From contig JAENZJ010000007.1 in NCBI GenBank assembly GCA_016841325.1, forward strand, positions 1 through 64,000: 64,000 bases of DNA, read 5' to 3'. Origin of the DNA: Thermincola carboxydiphila (GTDB lineage: Bacteria > Bacillota > Thermincolia > Thermincolales > UBA2595). Shown piece by piece: positions 29,358 through 39,388 of the stretch (its first letter is position 1; every line of letters starts with the position of its first letter). Below the pieces are notes generated by a model, which was not told the DNA's origin, ran no database searches, and worked only from the letters and a program-made list of their open reading frames with translations. Made by a program: the position numbers and the translations under genes.

Positions 29358-30503
29358 ATGATATATTTGGATAATGCGGCTACAACCTGGCCAAAACCTG
29401 AATCAATGGTGAAAGCCGTCGGAGACTGTATCAGAAATACAGGCGCCAACCCCGGCAGAGGCGGGCACCAGATGTCGCTTGCGGCAGGGAGGTTAATATA
29501 TGATGCCCGTGAATTATTGGCAAAATTATTTAATATTGATAACCCGTCACGAGTTGTCTTTACGGGAAACGCAACAGAATCCCTGAATTTAGTCTTAAAG
29601 GGCATTCTGAAACCCGGAAGTCATGTTGTTACCAGCTCCATGGAACATAATGCCGTGGCCCGGCCATTGCATTTTCTGAGACAACAGGGAGTTGAAGTGA
29701 GTATAGTAGAGTGTTCGCCGTCAGGTGTTTTAGACCCTGCAGATGTGGAGAAGGTTGTCAGGAAAAATACGAAGGCACTGGTGGTCCTCCATGCATCAAA
29801 TGTGACAGGGACCATAATGCCTGTGGAGCAGCTGGGCCAAATAGCTGCCAATCATGGCATCAGCTTCATCCTGGATGCAGCCCAGACAGCCGGTTATCTG
29901 GATATAGATGTCGAGAAACTGCATATTGATGCCCTGGCATTTACCGGGCATAAAGGTTTATACGGCCCGCAAGGCACTGGTGGGCTATTTGTCAGGGAAG
30001 GCCTGGAAGTCATACCTTTATTGCAAGGGGGTACCGGAAGTAAGTCAGAGTCCCTGGAACAGCCTGTTGACCTGCCTGACCGCTTTGAAAGCGGAACTCC
30101 TAATACTCCGGGAATTGCAGGTCTGGCAGAAGGAGTAAGGGTTATTACCCAAAAAGGACTCGGAGAAATCAGAAGACATGAAAACCTTCTTTTGCAGCGG
30201 TTTATTGACGGACTTGAACAACTCAGACAGGTGCAGATATATGGACCTAGTGATCCGGCACAGCGGGTCCCGGTAGTATCTTTGAACATCAAAGATCAGG
30301 ACTCCTCAGAAATTGCTTTCATCCTGGACAGGGTATATGGTATAGCCTGTCGCAGCGGCCTGCATTGTTCTCCACAGGCACATAAAACAATCGGTACCCT
30401 CAAAAAGGGTACCGTAAGGTTCAGTTTTTCTATGTATAATACAATTGAAGAAATTGACAGAACACTTCATGCTCTTGAGGAGATTATAACAGAGGTATCT
30501 TAA
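29358..30503 (+). CDS. Class V aminotransferase, cysteine desulfurase-like
   Basis: PLP enzyme of 381 residues starting MIYLDNAATTWPKPE, resembling the cysteine desulfurase branch found next to selenium or sulfur genes in clostridia. The PLP lysine is in ALAFTGHKGLYGPQGTGG (about residue 200), and a candidate catalytic cysteine is in RSGLHCSPQAH near residue 339. If a true desulfurase it would liberate sulfur from cysteine for cofactor synthesis. It converges on larB with overlapping stop codons; LarE needs sulfur, so a functional link is possible but unproven. Confidence 0.85.
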   Translation: MIYLDNAATTWPKPESMVKAVGDCIRNTGANPGRGGHQMSLAAGRLIYDARELLAKLFNIDNPSRVVFTGNATESLNLVLKGILKPGSHVVTSSMEHNAVARPLHFLRQQGVEVSIVECSPSGVLDPADVEKVVRKNTKALVVLHASNVTGTIMPVEQLGQIAANHGISFILDAAQTAGYLDIDVEKLHIDALAFTGHKGLYGPQGTGGLFVREGLEVIPLLQGGTGSKSESLEQPVDLPDRFESGTPNTPGIAGLAEGVRVITQKGLGEIRRHENLLLQRFIDGLEQLRQVQIYGPSDPAQRVPVVSLNIKDQDSSEIAFILDRVYGIACRSGLHCSPQAHKTIGTLKKGTVRFSFSMYNTIEEIDRTLHALEEIITEVS

Positions 30504-31258
30504 TTCCTTTCAGCCAGACGTACAATTGAGATGGCCATGGCAGCAGCCCCGAAGCCATTATCTATATTAACCACCGCAATTCCGGAAGCACAGGAATTAA
30601 GCATAGCCAGAAGTGCGGCCAGGCCGCCAAAACTGGCTCCATATCCTATGCTGGTGGGGACAGCAATTACGGGTACATCTACCAGGCCTGCAACCACGCT
30701 GGCCAAAGCGCCTTCCATTCCGGCGACCACTATAATTACAGCGGCCTTTCGGATCAGTTCATGGTGACTGAAAAGACGGTGAATCCCGGCAACCCCGACA
30801 TCATAAAGCCTGGTGACGGTTCCCCCCATTATTTCCGCTGTGACGGCTGCTTCTTCTGCCGCCGGAAGGTCGGCTGTACCTGCGCTGATTACGAGGATCG
30901 GGCTTTTGTACTTATGAATAGTATCATTCTCTATTGTAATACAGCGGGCAAGCTGGTGATACTGGGCCCGGGGACACTCCTGTTTTACCGTATCATAAAC
31001 ATCTATTCCCGCTCTGGTTGCCAGGACATTAGTATTGCACTTAGCAAGTCTGGAAACGATTTCAGCAACCTGGGAACATGTCTTACCTTCACAGAAGACG
31101 ACTTCAGGGAACCCATTTCTCAGGTTCCGGTGGTGGTCAAGTTTGGCATAACCCATATCTTCAAAAGGAAGGTTTTTCAGTTTCTCCAGGACCGTATCTA
31201 TATCCATCTGACCGTTTATCAGGCGACCAAGCAGGTTGCGTAAATAATTACTGTCCAT
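30500..31258 (-). CDS. larB: Nickel-pincer cofactor biosynthesis protein LarB
   Basis: Carboxylates and hydrolyses nicotinic acid adenine dinucleotide in the first step to the nickel-pincer nucleotide cofactor. 252 residues with PurE-like features: VISAGTADLPAAEEA, RLYDVGVAGIHRL and the C-terminal NIDNGFGAAAMA. The ATG at 31258 is chosen for its GGAGGAG site; it lies inside the end of larE (11-base overlap), so the two are translationally coupled. LarC and a LarA-type racemase are not in the window. Confidence 0.93.
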   Translation of the reverse strand: MDSNYLRNLLGRLINGQMDIDTVLEKLKNLPFEDMGYAKLDHHRNLRNGFPEVVFCEGKTCSQVAEIVSRLAKCNTNVLATRAGIDVYDTVKQECPRAQYHQLARCITIENDTIHKYKSPILVISAGTADLPAAEEAAVTAEIMGGTVTRLYDVGVAGIHRLFSHHELIRKAAVIIVVAGMEGALASVVAGLVDVPVIAVPTSIGYGASFGGLAALLAMLNSCASGIAVVNIDNGFGAAAMAISIVRLAERN

Positions 31259-32075
31259 ATCGGGTCTCCTCCGGAAGAATTTCATTAAAACTGCCGCTCC
31301 GAAATCCCTTCAAATCAATACTTACATAAATGAAACCAAGGGTTTCAAAGTGGCGGACAATATCTGTCCTAAAATTGTCTGAAAGAAATCTTTTAAAAGT
31401 ATCCACAGGGACTTCGATTCTGGCCAGATTACCATGATGTCTTACCCTCAGGTCTTTAATACCCAGGGACCTTAAAAATGTTTCTGCTTCCTCTATCTGC
31501 CTTAATTTTCTGCTTGTAATCCTCTGCCCATAGGGAATCCGCGAAGAGAGACAAGGCATGGCCGGTTTGTCCCAGTTGGGCAGCCCAAGCTGGCGGCACG
31601 CTTGTCTGATTTCAGACTTTGACAACCCTGCTTCCTGAAGAGGACTCCTGACACCGAGTTCCCGGGCGGCCCTGATCCCCGGGCGGTAGTCACCGGTATC
31701 ATCAGCATTGGAACCGTCAACAACCCACTTCAGCCCCTGTTCATCAGCAATGGCCTTTAATTTTCGAAAAAGCCCTGTTTTGCAGTGGTAGCAGCGTTGC
31801 GGAGAATTTTCAACAAATAATTCATTCTTCATCTCTATTGTTTCTATGATAATGTGCCTAGCACCGATTAATTTTGCAATTTTACAGGCATTGTCAATTT
31901 CAGCCGCAGGGTATACTTCAGAAGTGGCAGTAACGGCAAGTACATTCCTCCTGCCCAGTATTTTCACAGCTGCTTTAAGCAGCAGTGTACTGTCTACTCC
32001 ACCCGAAAAGGCAACCAGCACGGTTCCCATGTCCAGCAAGTTTTCCTGTAATTTGCGGGAAAAAATTTCTGCCAT
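31248..32075 (-). CDS. larE: Sulfur-inserting protein LarE
   Basis: ATP-pyrophosphatase-family enzyme that adds sulfur to the pyridinium precursor of the nickel-pincer cofactor. 275 residues with PP-loop VAFSGGVDSTLLL (about 21-33). Three cysteines stand out: C95 and C98 in RCYHCK, and C175 in MPCLSSR. The single-cysteine sacrificial type has only the last; the three-cysteine type is known to hold a [4Fe-4S] cluster for catalytic sulfur transfer, so this one should be of the cluster type. ATG 32075 has GGAGGG upstream. Confidence 0.93.
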   Translation of the reverse strand: MAEIFSRKLQENLLDMGTVLVAFSGGVDSTLLLKAAVKILGRRNVLAVTATSEVYPAAEIDNACKIAKLIGARHIIIETIEMKNELFVENSPQRCYHCKTGLFRKLKAIADEQGLKWVVDGSNADDTGDYRPGIRAARELGVRSPLQEAGLSKSEIRQACRQLGLPNWDKPAMPCLSSRIPYGQRITSRKLRQIEEAETFLRSLGIKDLRVRHHGNLARIEVPVDTFKRFLSDNFRTDIVRHFETLGFIYVSIDLKGFRSGSFNEILPEETRYGQ

Positions 32076-32284
32076 ATTCAGTATTCCCTCCAAGAGTTCT
32101 GATAGGTTATATGAGAAACGAAATCAGGCATATGTCGGTAATGTGCTTACATTTTAATACAGGGGTAACAGGTTGTCAAATAAACATAATAATATCAGCA
32201 GAAAATAACAACAGGCAAGAGGATTTTGTCGTCAAATGTTGAAATTAATAGAGCTATCAATTTTGGGGAGGCGGGGTTAAATTA

Positions 32285-34503: not shown

Positions 34504-35097
34504 CTAAACCGTCCACTCCTGTTCCCTGTCAAACATCATACTGCTTTCGTGAATGCCCCGGCTGATTATTTTTGCCATTTTCATTACAATGCTGAGGCGG
34601 GTATTTTGAAGCACAAAATACTCCATAAATCCGCCTACATTCACTATTCCGGTGATGTGGAGATGGCCAACCGGGGGCAGGTGTTTGTTTACCCCGGCAC
34701 CTGGTTTGAGGGCTCCTTCTCCAATATTTATATAACCGACACTGTCAACACTGCCAAGGCAGGCATCAATGGCTACCACAAAAGGGTTCTCCAGCTGATT
34801 GACAACACTCAGGTAAGTTGACAGGTTTGTTGCGTGAACAGGGGTTTCAAGTGTTCCCATGACCTTAAAAAATTTATGCTCAGTTTCAAGAAGGCTGCTT
34901 CCAACAAGTGGTCCCAGGCTGTCCCCTGTTGACCTGTCTGTGCCGATACATATAATTACCCGTGGTCTGTCCGGGGAAAAGTTTTTTCTGATTTGCTGCG
35001 AAAATGCCAGGGCAAATTTATCTAATGCGTCTTTATCTTCAACATGAATCTTAACATGTGTCGGACTGTTTCTTTGTACAGATGGGAAAAGGTGCAT
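34504..35097 (-). CDS. yyaC: Spore protease YyaC
   Basis: A 197-residue protein of the YyaC family, related in fold to the HybD hydrogenase maturation protease and germination protease. Visible marks are CIGTDRSTGDSLGPLVG (about 50-66), VAIDACLGSVDSVGYI and GVNKHLPPVGHLHITGIVN. It is a spore-former marker gene. It diverges from the hydrogenase-like operon; the fold relation to HybD makes this neighbourhood curious, but the sequence is plainly YyaC rather than a hydrogenase protease. Confidence 0.9.
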   Translation of the reverse strand: MHLFPSVQRNSPTHVKIHVEDKDALDKFALAFSQQIRKNFSPDRPRVIICIGTDRSTGDSLGPLVGSSLLETEHKFFKVMGTLETPVHATNLSTYLSVVNQLENPFVVAIDACLGSVDSVGYINIGEGALKPGAGVNKHLPPVGHLHITGIVNVGGFMEYFVLQNTRLSIVMKMAKIISRGIHESSMMFDREQEWTV

Positions 35098-35155: not shown

Positions 35156-35263
35156 TATGTACATTAAAATCAAATTATACTTAAATGGGTAAAAAAGGAG
35201 TTTCTGCTTCATTTGTCGAAAAAAGTACCTTAAAATCCGATTGTACATGGGCGGAGGTTGCAC

Positions 35264-36325
35264 ATGAAACATCTTAGCCGCAGACAATTTATCAAACTCT
35301 GTACAGCATCAGCTGCAGCCCTTGGGATTTCCCAGGTATGGGTTCCGGCAATCGGTAAAGCGTATCAAAACGCAGCCCAGGGCAGCCCTCCGGTGTTGTG
35401 GATTCAGGGGTCTGCCTGTAACGGGTGTTCATCATCCCTGTTAAATTCAGTTCATCCCAATATGAAAGAAGTGCTTCATGAGATCATCAATCTTTCGTAT
35501 CACCCGGGAATATCAACAGTAACAGTCAGGCACCTTCCTGATTACCTTCTTGATAGGGCACAACAAAACAGGGGCAGGTTTATCCTTGTTGTGGAAGGGG
35601 CCATTCCAACGGCCGGTCAGGGAAATTTCCATATTATCGGGCAGGATTCCCAGGGGAAGAAGATTACTCTGATAGAGCTGCTGAAGAAACTGGGAGAACT
35701 TACCGAGACAATAGTTGCTGTGGGTTCGTGTGCCTCATTTGGTGGTATTTCCGCTGCCGAGCCTAATGATGCAGAGTGTGTGGGACTGGAAAGGCTGATT
35801 GAGGTCAGTAAGGTGATTAATATTCCAGGCTGCCCGCCTCATCCGGACTGGATAGTGGGAACCCTTGCCCATCTGCTGCTTTTTGGGAGGCCGGAACTTG
35901 ACGACTATGGGAGACCCAGGGTATTTTTCCAGGGCCTGATACATAATAATTGTCCCAGGAGACAGTACTTTGACAACAGTATTTTTGCCAGGAAATTTGG
36001 TGAGGAGGGGTGTTTGCTGCAGGTCGGCTGTAAAGGCCCGCTTGCCCATGGTGACTGTCCCACCAGGCTATGGAACGGGGCATCTTCCTGGTGTGTCAAT
36101 GCCAATGCTCCCTGTATCGGATGTACAGACCCCAGTTTTCCTGACCTGACCATGCCTTTCTATAAAAGGATGCCGGAAATACAGGGACCGGGAATTACTT
36201 CTACTGCAGATGCCATTGGCATCGGTGTAGGGGCAGCTACAGCAGCAGGACTAGCAGTTCACCTGGCCGGAAATTATTTTTCCGGTCGAATTGGAAAAAA
36301 GAACAGCCGGGAGGATGAGGCATAG
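35264..36325 (+). CDS. [NiFe] hydrogenase small-subunit-like protein, Tat-exported
   Basis: Electron-transfer subunit of a group 1-type hydrogenase, 353 residues. Twin-arginine signal SRRQFIK at 5-11. Proximal cluster ligands C52, C55, C156 and C190; distal cluster H227, C230, C250 and C256; medial cluster C265, C284 and C287. C277 sits where typical enzymes have the proline that keeps the medial cluster a [3Fe-4S], so a [4Fe-4S] is predicted. A C-terminal transmembrane helix (about 317-337) anchors it outside the membrane. ATG 35264 is chosen for its CGGAGG site. It shares a stop/start overlap with the large-subunit gene. Confidence 0.93.
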   Translation: MKHLSRRQFIKLCTASAAALGISQVWVPAIGKAYQNAAQGSPPVLWIQGSACNGCSSSLLNSVHPNMKEVLHEIINLSYHPGISTVTVRHLPDYLLDRAQQNRGRFILVVEGAIPTAGQGNFHIIGQDSQGKKITLIELLKKLGELTETIVAVGSCASFGGISAAEPNDAECVGLERLIEVSKVINIPGCPPHPDWIVGTLAHLLLFGRPELDDYGRPRVFFQGLIHNNCPRRQYFDNSIFARKFGEEGCLLQVGCKGPLAHGDCPTRLWNGASSWCVNANAPCIGCTDPSFPDLTMPFYKRMPEIQGPGITSTADAIGIGVGAATAAGLAVHLAGNYFSGRIGKKNSREDEA

Positions 36326-37677
36326 TGGCAGAATTACTGGTTATTCATCCTCTGAACAGGGGTATCCGGCCAATAAGACTGGAAGTGGAAACAGAGTCCC
36401 GCAAAATAACTTCTGCAAAAGCAGGGACCACATTTTACTGGGATTTTGAAAAGACTCTGCAGGGCAAAGACCCCCTTGATGCCATCCAACTGACCCAACG
36501 TTGCAGCGGAATAGACTTTATTTCTCATGCTGTTGCTGCCGTCCGGGCCTTGGAGGGTATAGCCGGGGTTTCTGTGCCGCCAAATGCGCGGTTGATCAGA
36601 AATATTTTGTTGGCCCTGGATATGATTTACGGAAATCTGGCGCACTTTTATCAAAACGCAGTGCCTGATTATATACCTTTAAAGACGGGTCCTGCAGTGC
36701 ACGGACAGGATGGGGACTTCCGGGTCCCGCCTACTGTGGCTGAAAGGATTGCGGCTAATGCGTGGCAGGCGCTGGAAATGCGCAGCCTGATCCATAGCAT
36801 GACTGGTGTTGTGGCAGGAAAAGCACCTCATATCTGTAATGTTGTATTTAGCGGCATTACCCGGAATTTAAATATAGCCGACATACTTAAGTTAAAATCA
36901 AATCTCGGCGAGGTTGGCAGGTTTGTATTCAATGGGTATACAAGGGACCTGGAAGACCTGGAAAAAGCGTATCCTGATTATTTTGACCTTGGTAAGGGAG
37001 ATGGACGCCTGCTAACTGTAAACGAATTTCCCGCAAACAAGCCGGGTGAATTTATGATTCCCGGTTCAGTCAAAACAGGCACCGGGAACCTGGTGCTGGA
37101 TACAGGTCTGATAACCGTAGCTTGTGCAGGGTCCTGGTTTGAGGCAGCGGACTCAGGGAATACTACCCTGGCAGGACCTTTTAAGACCTCACCTGATAAG
37201 CCTGGAGGATATTCCTGGGTGAAAGGCGCTTTGTATGACAAAAAGACTTTTGAGGTAGGGGCTCTGGCACGAATGTTGTTGTCAGGCAATTCTGTTACCA
37301 CCGGCATGGGGGCACGGGCCTTTTCCGTCATGGGCCGTTTTCGGGCCCGCCTTGAGGAAACTAAAGCCTTGTTGGAAAAAATTTCTGCCTGGATAGAAGA
37401 ATATGAACCCGATGGACAGCTAACGGCAGAATCAGAGGTCCCGGAAGAAGGGTTGGCAATCGGTGCTGCCGAAGCGTCCCAGGGGTCGGTTATTCATTAT
37501 GTCTCTTTGAGTGACGGCAGGATTGAATTATATAATGCCCTGGATTCATTCTCGTGGAACCTCTGTCCACAGACGGCAGACAATAACAGGGGGCCAATGG
37601 AACAATCACTTATCGGACTTACTGTTGCTAACCCGGAAAGCCCTGTAGAGGTGCTCAGGGCAGCCCGGTCATTTTAA
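36325..37677 (+). CDS. [NiFe] hydrogenase large-subunit homologue lacking NiFe ligands
   Basis: A 450-residue protein that aligns with group 1 large subunits throughout (FYWDFEKTLQGKDPLDA, HAVAAVRALEG, GKAPHICNVV, QSLIGLTVANPESPVEVLR). The N-terminal RxCGxC motif is RCSGID (59-64), so both cysteine positions are replaced, and the last motif DPCxxCxxH is absent because the protein ends at RSF450. RIEGH is replaced by RGIRP (12-16), and the active-site arginine of APRGA is Q386. The fold is kept but the metal site is not. The gene is intact, GTG start coupled to the small subunit, so it looks functional rather than a pseudogene. Activity unknown. Confidence 0.9.
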   Translation: MAELLVIHPLNRGIRPIRLEVETESRKITSAKAGTTFYWDFEKTLQGKDPLDAIQLTQRCSGIDFISHAVAAVRALEGIAGVSVPPNARLIRNILLALDMIYGNLAHFYQNAVPDYIPLKTGPAVHGQDGDFRVPPTVAERIAANAWQALEMRSLIHSMTGVVAGKAPHICNVVFSGITRNLNIADILKLKSNLGEVGRFVFNGYTRDLEDLEKAYPDYFDLGKGDGRLLTVNEFPANKPGEFMIPGSVKTGTGNLVLDTGLITVACAGSWFEAADSGNTTLAGPFKTSPDKPGGYSWVKGALYDKKTFEVGALARMLLSGNSVTTGMGARAFSVMGRFRARLEETKALLEKISAWIEEYEPDGQLTAESEVPEEGLAIGAAEASQGSVIHYVSLSDGRIELYNALDSFSWNLCPQTADNNRGPMEQSLIGLTVANPESPVEVLRAARSF

Positions 37678-37702: not shown

Positions 37703-38341
37703 TTGGCTAAGGAAATTTATTGCCATACAATACCTGCCCGGATTTTACACTGGATAAATGCAGCCAATATTGGTCTTTTGACCACATCGGGCATGTATAT
37801 CAGGGATCCGGAGGTTTTTGCCCTGTTTGCCAACATGGATATTGCCAGGAAAACACATTTTATCGCCATGTACCTGATTATTTACGGCATCCTGATAAGG
37901 ATATACTATTCATGGGTAAGCAGGGATTACCGTGAATTAATGTTCCGGCCGCGGGATTTCAGAGAGTTTCCGGCTCTGTTCAGGTATTATCTGTTTATAC
38001 GGAAAGAACCGCCCGAGTCCGGAAAATATAACGCAGGCCAGAAGCTGCTCTACAATGCTTGGGCAGTGCTGGTATTCCTTCAGGCCGTCACCGGGTTCGG
38101 ACTCTATTTTCCTGATGGGTTGGCAGCTTTTGTGAGGATGTTTGGGGGACCGGTGGTTATCAGGCAGCTTCATTTTGCCATAACCTGGGTTTTTATTGTT
38201 TCTGTGGCCCTTCATGTTTATCTCTCCTTTATAGGTGGATGGATGGTTATAAAATCCATGATTACAGGATATCTGCCGGAAGGAGTATATATGCAGCCGG
38301 TGGCTGATGAAACTGAAAGGGGAAATATAGGGGATTTTTAA
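37703..38341 (+). CDS. Hydrogenase-type cytochrome b (HyaC/HupC-like)
   Basis: A 212-residue integral membrane protein with four predicted helices. Histidines in ILHWINAANIG, KTHFIAMYL and RQLHFAITWVFIVSVALHVYL are the likely ligands of two b hemes. In group 1 hydrogenases this subunit passes electrons from the small subunit to quinone. TTG start with GAGAGGTGG upstream, 25 bases after the large-subunit homologue. Its conservation implies that the complex still exchanges electrons with the membrane. Confidence 0.9.
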   Translation: MAKEIYCHTIPARILHWINAANIGLLTTSGMYIRDPEVFALFANMDIARKTHFIAMYLIIYGILIRIYYSWVSRDYRELMFRPRDFREFPALFRYYLFIRKEPPESGKYNAGQKLLYNAWAVLVFLQAVTGFGLYFPDGLAAFVRMFGGPVVIRQLHFAITWVFIVSVALHVYLSFIGGWMVIKSMITGYLPEGVYMQPVADETERGNIGDF

Positions 38342-38388
38342 GAGACCACGCGGTTTTCGGATGGTTTTCGGATGTGGAGGGAATTGAC

Positions 38389-38730
38389 TTGCACGAAATG
38401 GCATTAATGGCAGGTGTTTTTGATATTATCAGGCAGTACACCACAGACCTGTCTGATAAAAATGTCACCAGGGTTACCCTGGTTGTCGGGGAAATGACCA
38501 ATGCAGTACCCGAGGCCCTGGAAGCAGCCTTTGAGGTACATGCAAAAGGAACTCCGGTTGAGGGAGCAAAACTGGTGATAAAGGATATCCCGCTGGTGGC
38601 AAGGTGCCGCAGCTGTGGCTGGGAAGGTAAAACGGAAAAACATGTTTTTATGTGTCCCGGGTGTTCATCCTTTGGCATGGAACTGATTTCCGGCCGGGAA
38701 TTATATGTGGAAAGCCTGGAGGTGGAATAA
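38389..38730 (+). CDS. hypA: Hydrogenase nickel incorporation protein HypA
   Basis: Nickel metallochaperone, 113 residues. The TTG start at 38389 gives MHEMALM, placing the nickel-binding histidine at position 2 as the family requires; a longer reading would bury it. The zinc site has CRSCGWEG and CPGCSS (cysteines about 73, 76, 89 and 92). GGAGG lies 9 bases upstream. It overlaps nothing but is one base from hypB, and works with HypB to insert nickel into hydrogenase large subunits. Confidence 0.95.
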   Translation: MHEMALMAGVFDIIRQYTTDLSDKNVTRVTLVVGEMTNAVPEALEAAFEVHAKGTPVEGAKLVIKDIPLVARCRSCGWEGKTEKHVFMCPGCSSFGMELISGRELYVESLEVE

Positions 38731-38731
38731 C

Positions 38732-39388
38732 GTGGAGATTAAAGTAAATACCGGCATCCTCAGTGCAAATGAGCAAAAAGCAGTGGAGAACAGGAAACTC
38801 TTTAAGGAAAACGGGGTTTTTGCCATCAACCTTATGGGTTCTCCCGGAGCCGGCAAGACTACTGTTTTGGAAAAAACCATTGATTACCTGAGCGGGAAAG
38901 TCAGGCTGGCAGTAATTGAAGGAGATATATATACCAGCAAAGATGCCAGGAGAATTGAAAAATACGGAGTTCCTGTTGAGCAGATTAATACCGGCGGGGC
39001 CTGTCATCTTGATGCCAAAATGGTGTCAGGGGCTCTTAGTAAGTTTGACCTGACCGGACTTGACCTGATGGTTATTGAAAATGTGGGCAATCTGGTCTGC
39101 CCTGTTGAATTTGACCTTGGTGAAGACCAGAAAATTGCAGTCCTTAGCATTACTGAGGGAGATGATAAGCCGATGAAATATCCCCTGCTTTTCCGGGAGT
39201 CAGGGGCAGTTATTCTGAATAAAATGGATATCCTTGACTTTACTGATGTGGACCTTGAAGGCTTACGCAAGGATATTCACATAATTAATCCTGATATTAA
39301 AATTTTTGAAGTATCGGCCCGGACCGGACAGGGTATTGATCAATGGGCAGAGTGGTTAACAGACAGGGTTAAAGACACTGTGAAATAA
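38732..39388 (+). CDS. hypB: Hydrogenase nickel incorporation GTPase HypB
   Basis: SIMIBI-class GTPase, 218 residues. P-loop GSPGAGKTTVLEKT (about 37-50), the HypB signature GGACHLDAKMV with the interface Cys-His pair, ENVGNLVCP, and NKMD. It lacks a histidine-rich N-terminal nickel store. GTG start at 38732 with GGAGGTGG. The partner large subunit of this operon has no nickel ligands, so HypA/HypB probably serve another hydrogenase elsewhere in the genome. Confidence 0.95.
   Translation: MEIKVNTGILSANEQKAVENRKLFKENGVFAINLMGSPGAGKTTVLEKTIDYLSGKVRLAVIEGDIYTSKDARRIEKYGVPVEQINTGGACHLDAKMVSGALSKFDLTGLDLMVIENVGNLVCPVEFDLGEDQKIAVLSITEGDDKPMKYPLLFRESGAVILNKMDILDFTDVDLEGLRKDIHIINPDIKIFEVSARTGQGIDQWAEWLTDRVKDTVK

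Follow-up and report, generated by a model that had tools for sequence, protein, structure and literature searches.

In the class around Thermincola, a complete and selected hydrogenase-type gene set has lost its metal site, and its most likely task is electron transfer that does not serve hydrogen turnover. We analysed one copy in a stretch of 64,000 nucleotides of Thermincola carboxydiphila DNA (positions 1 to 64,000 of contig JAENZJ010000007.1, assembly GCA_016841325.1), hereafter the window. The best explanation, to which we give a probability of about 0.6, is a repurposed, membrane-bound, outward-facing and quinone-linked electron-transfer complex without a NiFe site or hydrogen chemistry, though its role is inferred and its redox partner is unknown. 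What can be read from the genes themselves is a Tat-exported small subunit (SSU) with ligands for three FeS clusters, a large subunit (LSU) of hydrogenase fold without NiFe ligands and a cytochrome b, together with vertical inheritance and purifying selection in the class. The orientation of the complex and its quinone link are inferred from homology.

The LSU gene is one uninterrupted frame of 450 aa from the GTG at 36325 to the TAA at 37675-37677, and its start overlaps the SSU stop (TAG, 36323-36325) by one base, in agreement with the intact, translationally coupled gene described in the first-pass annotation (Table 1). That annotation also claimed that the protein has no NiFe-ligating cysteine, lacks the RIEGH Glu and the APRGA Arg, and ends cleanly before DPCxxCxxH, and our alignment bears out each point. 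L1 reads RCSGID and L2 is absent; RGIRP and ASQGS stand at the two catalytic positions. The stop follows RSF directly, and neither DPCxxCxxH nor CxxC occurs in any frame of the 25 nt that separate it from the cytochrome b start. C60 within RCSGID aligns with the Ile of RICGVC, a position taken by Thr in most relatives, and thus is not a surviving ligand. It is hardly conceivable that the gene encodes a normal hydrogenase whose ligands are masked by a sequencing error or a wrongly read frame, the outcome that would have overturned the annotation, because eight other genomes show the same losses and no motif follows the stop; the orthologues refute it.

Table 1. Positions of the genes and motifs discussed, in window coordinates.
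Feature	Position	Strand	Evidence or remark
yyaC (spore protease family), divergent neighbour marking the conserved locus, outside the complex	34504..35097	-	TIGR02841 206 bits; synteny
SSU (HydA/HysB type) with Tat signal SRRQFIK, proximal, medial and distal FeS-cluster ligands and C-terminal membrane anchor	35264..36325	+	TIGR00391 270 bits, TIGR01409, PF14720, PF01058
LSU, ligand-less hydrogenase large subunit, 450 aa	36325..37677	+	NiFeSe_Hases (PF00374) 217 bits; AlphaFold2 pLDDT 92.8; TM 0.95 to [NiFeSe] hydrogenase
RIEGH position, RGIRP (residues 12-16)	36358..36372	+	proton-transfer Glu gone
L1 position (RICGVC), RCSGID (residues 59-64)	36499..36516	+	both Cys ligands replaced (S61, D64)
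APRGA position, ASQGS (residues 384-388)	37474..37488	+	catalytic Arg replaced by Gln386
C-terminal RSF and stop	37666..37677	+	frame stops just ahead of the DPCxxCxxH (L2) position
HyaC-type cytochrome b (b561 family), conserved His	37703..38341	+	PF01292 112 bits
hypA (nickel metallochaperone), same operon	38374..38730	+	TIGR00100 89 bits
hypB	38705..39388	+	TIGR00073 283 bits; true start probably 38732-38735

The earlier assignment to a group 1-type large subunit is supported by the Pfam match, the trees and the fold. With regard to the curated NCBIfam models, the closest ones are NiFeSe large subunits, matched far under their cut-offs: the [NiFeSe] HysA models NF045518 and NF033181 gave 280 of 780 and 311 of 600 bits, and the NuoD models gave 27 of 360 and 19 of 459 bits, so the protein does not qualify as NuoD-type either. 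An AlphaFold2 model from a 45-row alignment was well resolved (pLDDT 92.8; a run with the nine ligand-less rows alone reached 62 and was not used), and Foldseek placed it on [NiFeSe] large subunits (4kl8, TM 0.95, 28% identity); in this predicted structure the hydrogenase fold is kept. The LSU fails the catalytic criteria of group 1, namely L1 RxCGxC, L2 DPCxxCxxH with its protease-cut extension, the RIEGH Glu and the APRGA Arg; it meets those of fold, common ancestry in the trees, a Tat-exported SSU with three FeS clusters and a HyaC-type cytochrome b. Judged by these residues and scores, it does not belong to the catalytic group 1 hydrogenases; by descent and architecture it derives from them. 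The NiFe(CN)2CO centre cannot be held in the known way by a protein without the ligands. On this established knowledge of the family, the complex cannot use hydrogen as known hydrogenases do, this lack of H2 activity being inferred from sequence alone.

The ligand-less LSU is present in nine of the ten sampled genomes of the class, the copy in the window included (three from the window's genus, five more from its family, and G009 from a second family). The first-pass annotation had taken orthologues with the same losses in other species as the mark of a new family, and the eight others found here share 34-80% identity, have lost all four ligands and have the same end point, with RSF at the C-terminus in all of the nine except G009 (RAFE). 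All nine lie at one conserved chromosomal place. The first ligand position is Ser or Asn and the second Asp in the window's family, and they are Asn and Leu in G009. Against a profile of their own, the nine scored 632-790 bits and the next sequences at most 429 among 398 genomes sampled from the phylum, to which this screen of draft genomes was limited. A second search of the phylum, centred on G131 (described below), recovered the same genomes and nothing new; a scan of genome contigs returned only the Thermincola MAG that is our G001 and a canonical Aminicenantes gene, and the plasmid collection gave matches only at 31% identity or less among the matches listed.

These copies do not look like decaying genes. 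None of the nine LSU copies has a frameshift, and pairwise dN/dS within the window's genus was 0.11-0.20 for the LSU, 0.06-0.10 for the SSU and 0.10-0.14 for the cytochrome b. The FeS ligands of the SSU are intact in all nine orthologues and the main His of the cytochrome b is kept in the alignment. Moreover, about 38 LSU positions are newly fixed in at least seven of the eight LSUs of the family and rare in 34 canonical rows, including W39-D40 (in place of RG), D64-F65, D407, C414 and T417; as far as an alignment can tell, this is new constraint and not only the loss of an old one. The position of the canonical Pro in the xPTTWN stretch (P508 in E. coli Hyd-1) holds Ser, Ala or Pro here, and the residue after it is Phe or Tyr in eight of eight family members. 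Decay with frameshifts is ruled out by the intact orthologues and the low dN/dS, and the random degradation that would have refuted the first-pass annotation did not occur. Its proposal of a repurposed complex rather than decay therefore holds, given nine ligand-less orthologues without a frameshift, constrained and newly fixed residues, a kept fold and kept FeS and haem ligands in the partners, with the function of the repurposing unproven.

Some of the conserved residues, such as D64, H68, D407 and C414, might bind another metal centre: the window's family conserves all four, and three of them (D64, D407 and C414) are new. We consider this quite improbable, since the conservation of D64 and C414 does not extend to G009, that of H68 extends to canonical enzymes, and one Cys with a few Asp would make a weak metal site.

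In the tenth genome of the class, G004, the locus keeps yyaC, a broken C-terminal remnant of the cytochrome b, hypA and hypB, and the SSU and LSU are gone; this is a deletion of the three genes. The scar (L090:8514-8649) holds the remnant in two pieces between yyaC and hypA/hypB. In addition, the LSU evolves about twice as fast as the SSU. The faster LSU and the G004 deletion count against an electron-transfer role, since they leave room for an LSU that is merely a scaffold and show that one lineage can do without the complex. In that case the LSU would be a slow relic, a structural filler that stabilizes the SSU without any binding role, and the SSU with the cytochrome b, or the downstream hypAB, would be what matters. 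The weaker constraint on the LSU, the clean deletion in G004 with retention of hypAB and the single copy of hypB described below all fit this explanation, but it is unlikely in view of the absence of frameshifts in nine genomes, an LSU dN/dS well under 1, the newly fixed LSU residues and the state of G005. In G005 the hypAB genes were lost from the locus and the three genes for SSU, LSU and cytochrome b were kept, which counts for the electron-transfer complex. No hypB, hypD or hypE above cut-off was found in G005 (L036, L089), whose assembly is given as 100% complete. That genome also encodes a canonical large subunit of group 1 in which all four Cys are present, so that an assembly gap is possible and there is no more than a hint that the operon persists there without any NiFe maturation.

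In the window, the operon runs SSU, LSU, cytochrome b, hypA and hypB, divergent from yyaC. The SSU has an alternative start (TTG at 35258), and the cytochrome b reached 118 bits with TIGR02125, slightly below the cut-off of 121.5; together with the Tat signal and the PF01292 match this upholds the Tat-exported small subunit and HyaC-type cytochrome b of the earlier description. The presence of hypAB would suit a nickel enzyme and speaks against our reading; yet the operon hypB is the sole hypB above cut-off in the genome and hypD and hypE are located elsewhere, so the two genes probably serve the other hydrogenases of the genome, as we infer. The same genome has a second, canonical group 1 set (L041: RICGIC, DPCLACAVH). 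Two other large subunits of this genome, 516-518 aa long, match the full length of the Pfam family. Hydrogen metabolism is thus not lost along with the site in this operon. No antiporter-like pump subunits were seen in the operon neighbourhood. About 3 kb upstream (30500-32093) lie two genes that resemble larB and larE, which belong to the pathway for the nickel-pincer cofactor, named by eye without a profile.

Two genomes of other families, G131 and G097, carry the orthologous locus with yyaC beside the SSU, in assemblies that are 83-85% complete. The G131 LSU (L088:7158-8519) keeps RICGIC and DLCLACAAH, has APQGA and lacks the RIEGH Glu, and it ends exactly after the His of DLCLACAAH with no C-terminal extension to cleave. 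The G097 LSU (L072:2015-3346) has RICSEE, APGGM, RFRGS and APCAGCAAH, with one L1 Cys lost, and still has the extension. The tree-building advised in the first-pass annotation put all 11 LSUs in one clade (100/98), with the nine together (97/92), and the better conserved SSU recovered this clade as well (98/98), G097 and G131 being sisters to the class. In the nearest canonical operon of which the whole was read, that of G056, a maturation protease gene (TIGR00072, 145 bits) separates cytochrome b from hypA; the operons of the window and of G131 have no such gene. G131 and G097 look like living intermediates on the path of site loss; their states and the tree are observed and the order is inferred. 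The protease gene and the catalytic Arg and Glu would probably have gone first, followed by one L1 Cys and then by the whole set of four ligands along with the L2 end, with the caveat that the extension persists in G097.

A regulatory or sensory role, in which the complex would inform a regulator about the redox state of the quinone pool or the exterior instead of carrying respiratory flux, was considered because an [FeFe]-hydrogenase-like domain fused to a sigma-54 activator is encoded just upstream of the SSU in G009 (L040:6190-8382) and G131 (L088:3845-6070). In the window's family the locus has no such regulator, and soluble sensory hydrogenases differ from a Tat-exported SSU paired with a cytochrome b, so we regard the role as very unlikely. 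Also in G009, a second small subunit of 244 aa lies between LSU and cytochrome b (L040:11104-11835); it has the proximal-cluster domain only, with KK for the Tat RR, and is NuoB-like in content.

We return to the electron-transfer complex as the preferred explanation. The cytochrome b would exchange electrons with the menaquinone pool, the three FeS clusters of the SSU would relay them, and the LSU may cap the proximal cluster and give a non-hydrogen partner access to it. This partner could be a small redox-active organic molecule sitting where the active site used to be, or a redox protein that docks, a guess made without binding data. Electron transfer between menaquinone and an outside partner would be the simplest use of the remaining relay. 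Thermincola species are known for extracellular electron transfer, which lends plausibility to an outside partner, although no evidence here links the operon with that process. The common locus and end point, low dN/dS, newly fixed residues, kept partner ligands, intermediates, absence of the protease and kept fold support this explanation. On the other hand, no redox partner gene is conserved beside the operon in the loci of the window's family, and this counts against it. We also propose, only tentatively and with some doubt, that a group 1 hydrogenase became an oxidoreductase on the outer face of the membrane independently of complex I, with its vacated NiFe pocket used for a non-hydrogen redox substrate and with G131 and G097 preserving the stages.

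It is an old question how a hydrogenase module turned into the quinone-reducing part of complex I, and close living intermediates are lacking for it. In the present case a group 1 enzyme lost its active site inside a single phylum, and the same chromosomal locus shows the ligand set full, partial or absent in different genomes, so that the order of events and the new function may be tested in culturable anaerobes. Moreover, homology-based annotation (nickel-dependent hydrogenase large subunit, PF00374) includes genes without any metal ligand among the hydrogenases.

Other variants of group 1 large subunits were seen in the same survey. In other families the gene has an in-frame TGA (L011/L063, G043:C4:105042-106412; L012 of G052; L067 of G363; also G299, G329, G286 and G139), and in the four that were read it stands at the second L1 Cys (RICGV-TGA-P) with the remaining protein and DPCxxC intact. 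This suggests selenocysteine at L1, without data on the selenocysteine machinery; the known NiFeSe enzymes have it at L2. The large subunit L070 (G082:C66) has a canonical L1 and DVCSACATH and ends exactly at the His, so that no cleavage at the C-terminus is needed; in this it resembles G131, but it retains the Arg.

No ligand-less large subunit of group 1 with Tat export was found in the open-access papers searched, and the statement of the first-pass annotation that no counterpart with a Tat-exported SSU and a HyaC-type cytochrome b was known stands within that scope. Among known systems, the group 1 [NiFe]/[NiFeSe] uptake hydrogenases of the HysAB type with a HyaC-type cytochrome b, such as that of the G056 operon and the [NiFeSe] enzymes of Desulfovibrio vulgaris and Desulfomicrobium baculatum, share with the window complex the order SSU-LSU-cytochrome b, Tat export, FeS ligands and the LSU fold (TM 0.95; 28-34% identity), whereas the window complex lacks the L1 and L2 Cys, the RIEGH Glu, the APRGA Arg, the C-terminal extension and the protease gene in the operon. 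The canonical hydrogenase of its own genome (L041, G000:C6) has the same three-gene architecture with about 31% LSU and 42% SSU identity, but it has RICGIC, the Arg and DPCLACAVH and belongs to another clade. Ehr-type group 4 large subunits are also without the L1 and L2 ligands. NuoD and FpoD have lost L1 and L2 (PMC7886697), and the comparison with complex I and Ehr made in the earlier annotation is fair as an analogy, in that a hydrogenase-type large subunit without these ligands sits beside a cluster-bearing small subunit; it is not kinship, since window-type LSUs are of group 1 type. NuoD, FpoD and Ehr stand on the group 4 side, at the cytoplasmic face and with ion-pump subunits, whereas the window complex combines a group 1 LSU with a Tat-exported SSU and a cytochrome b and has no pump subunits.
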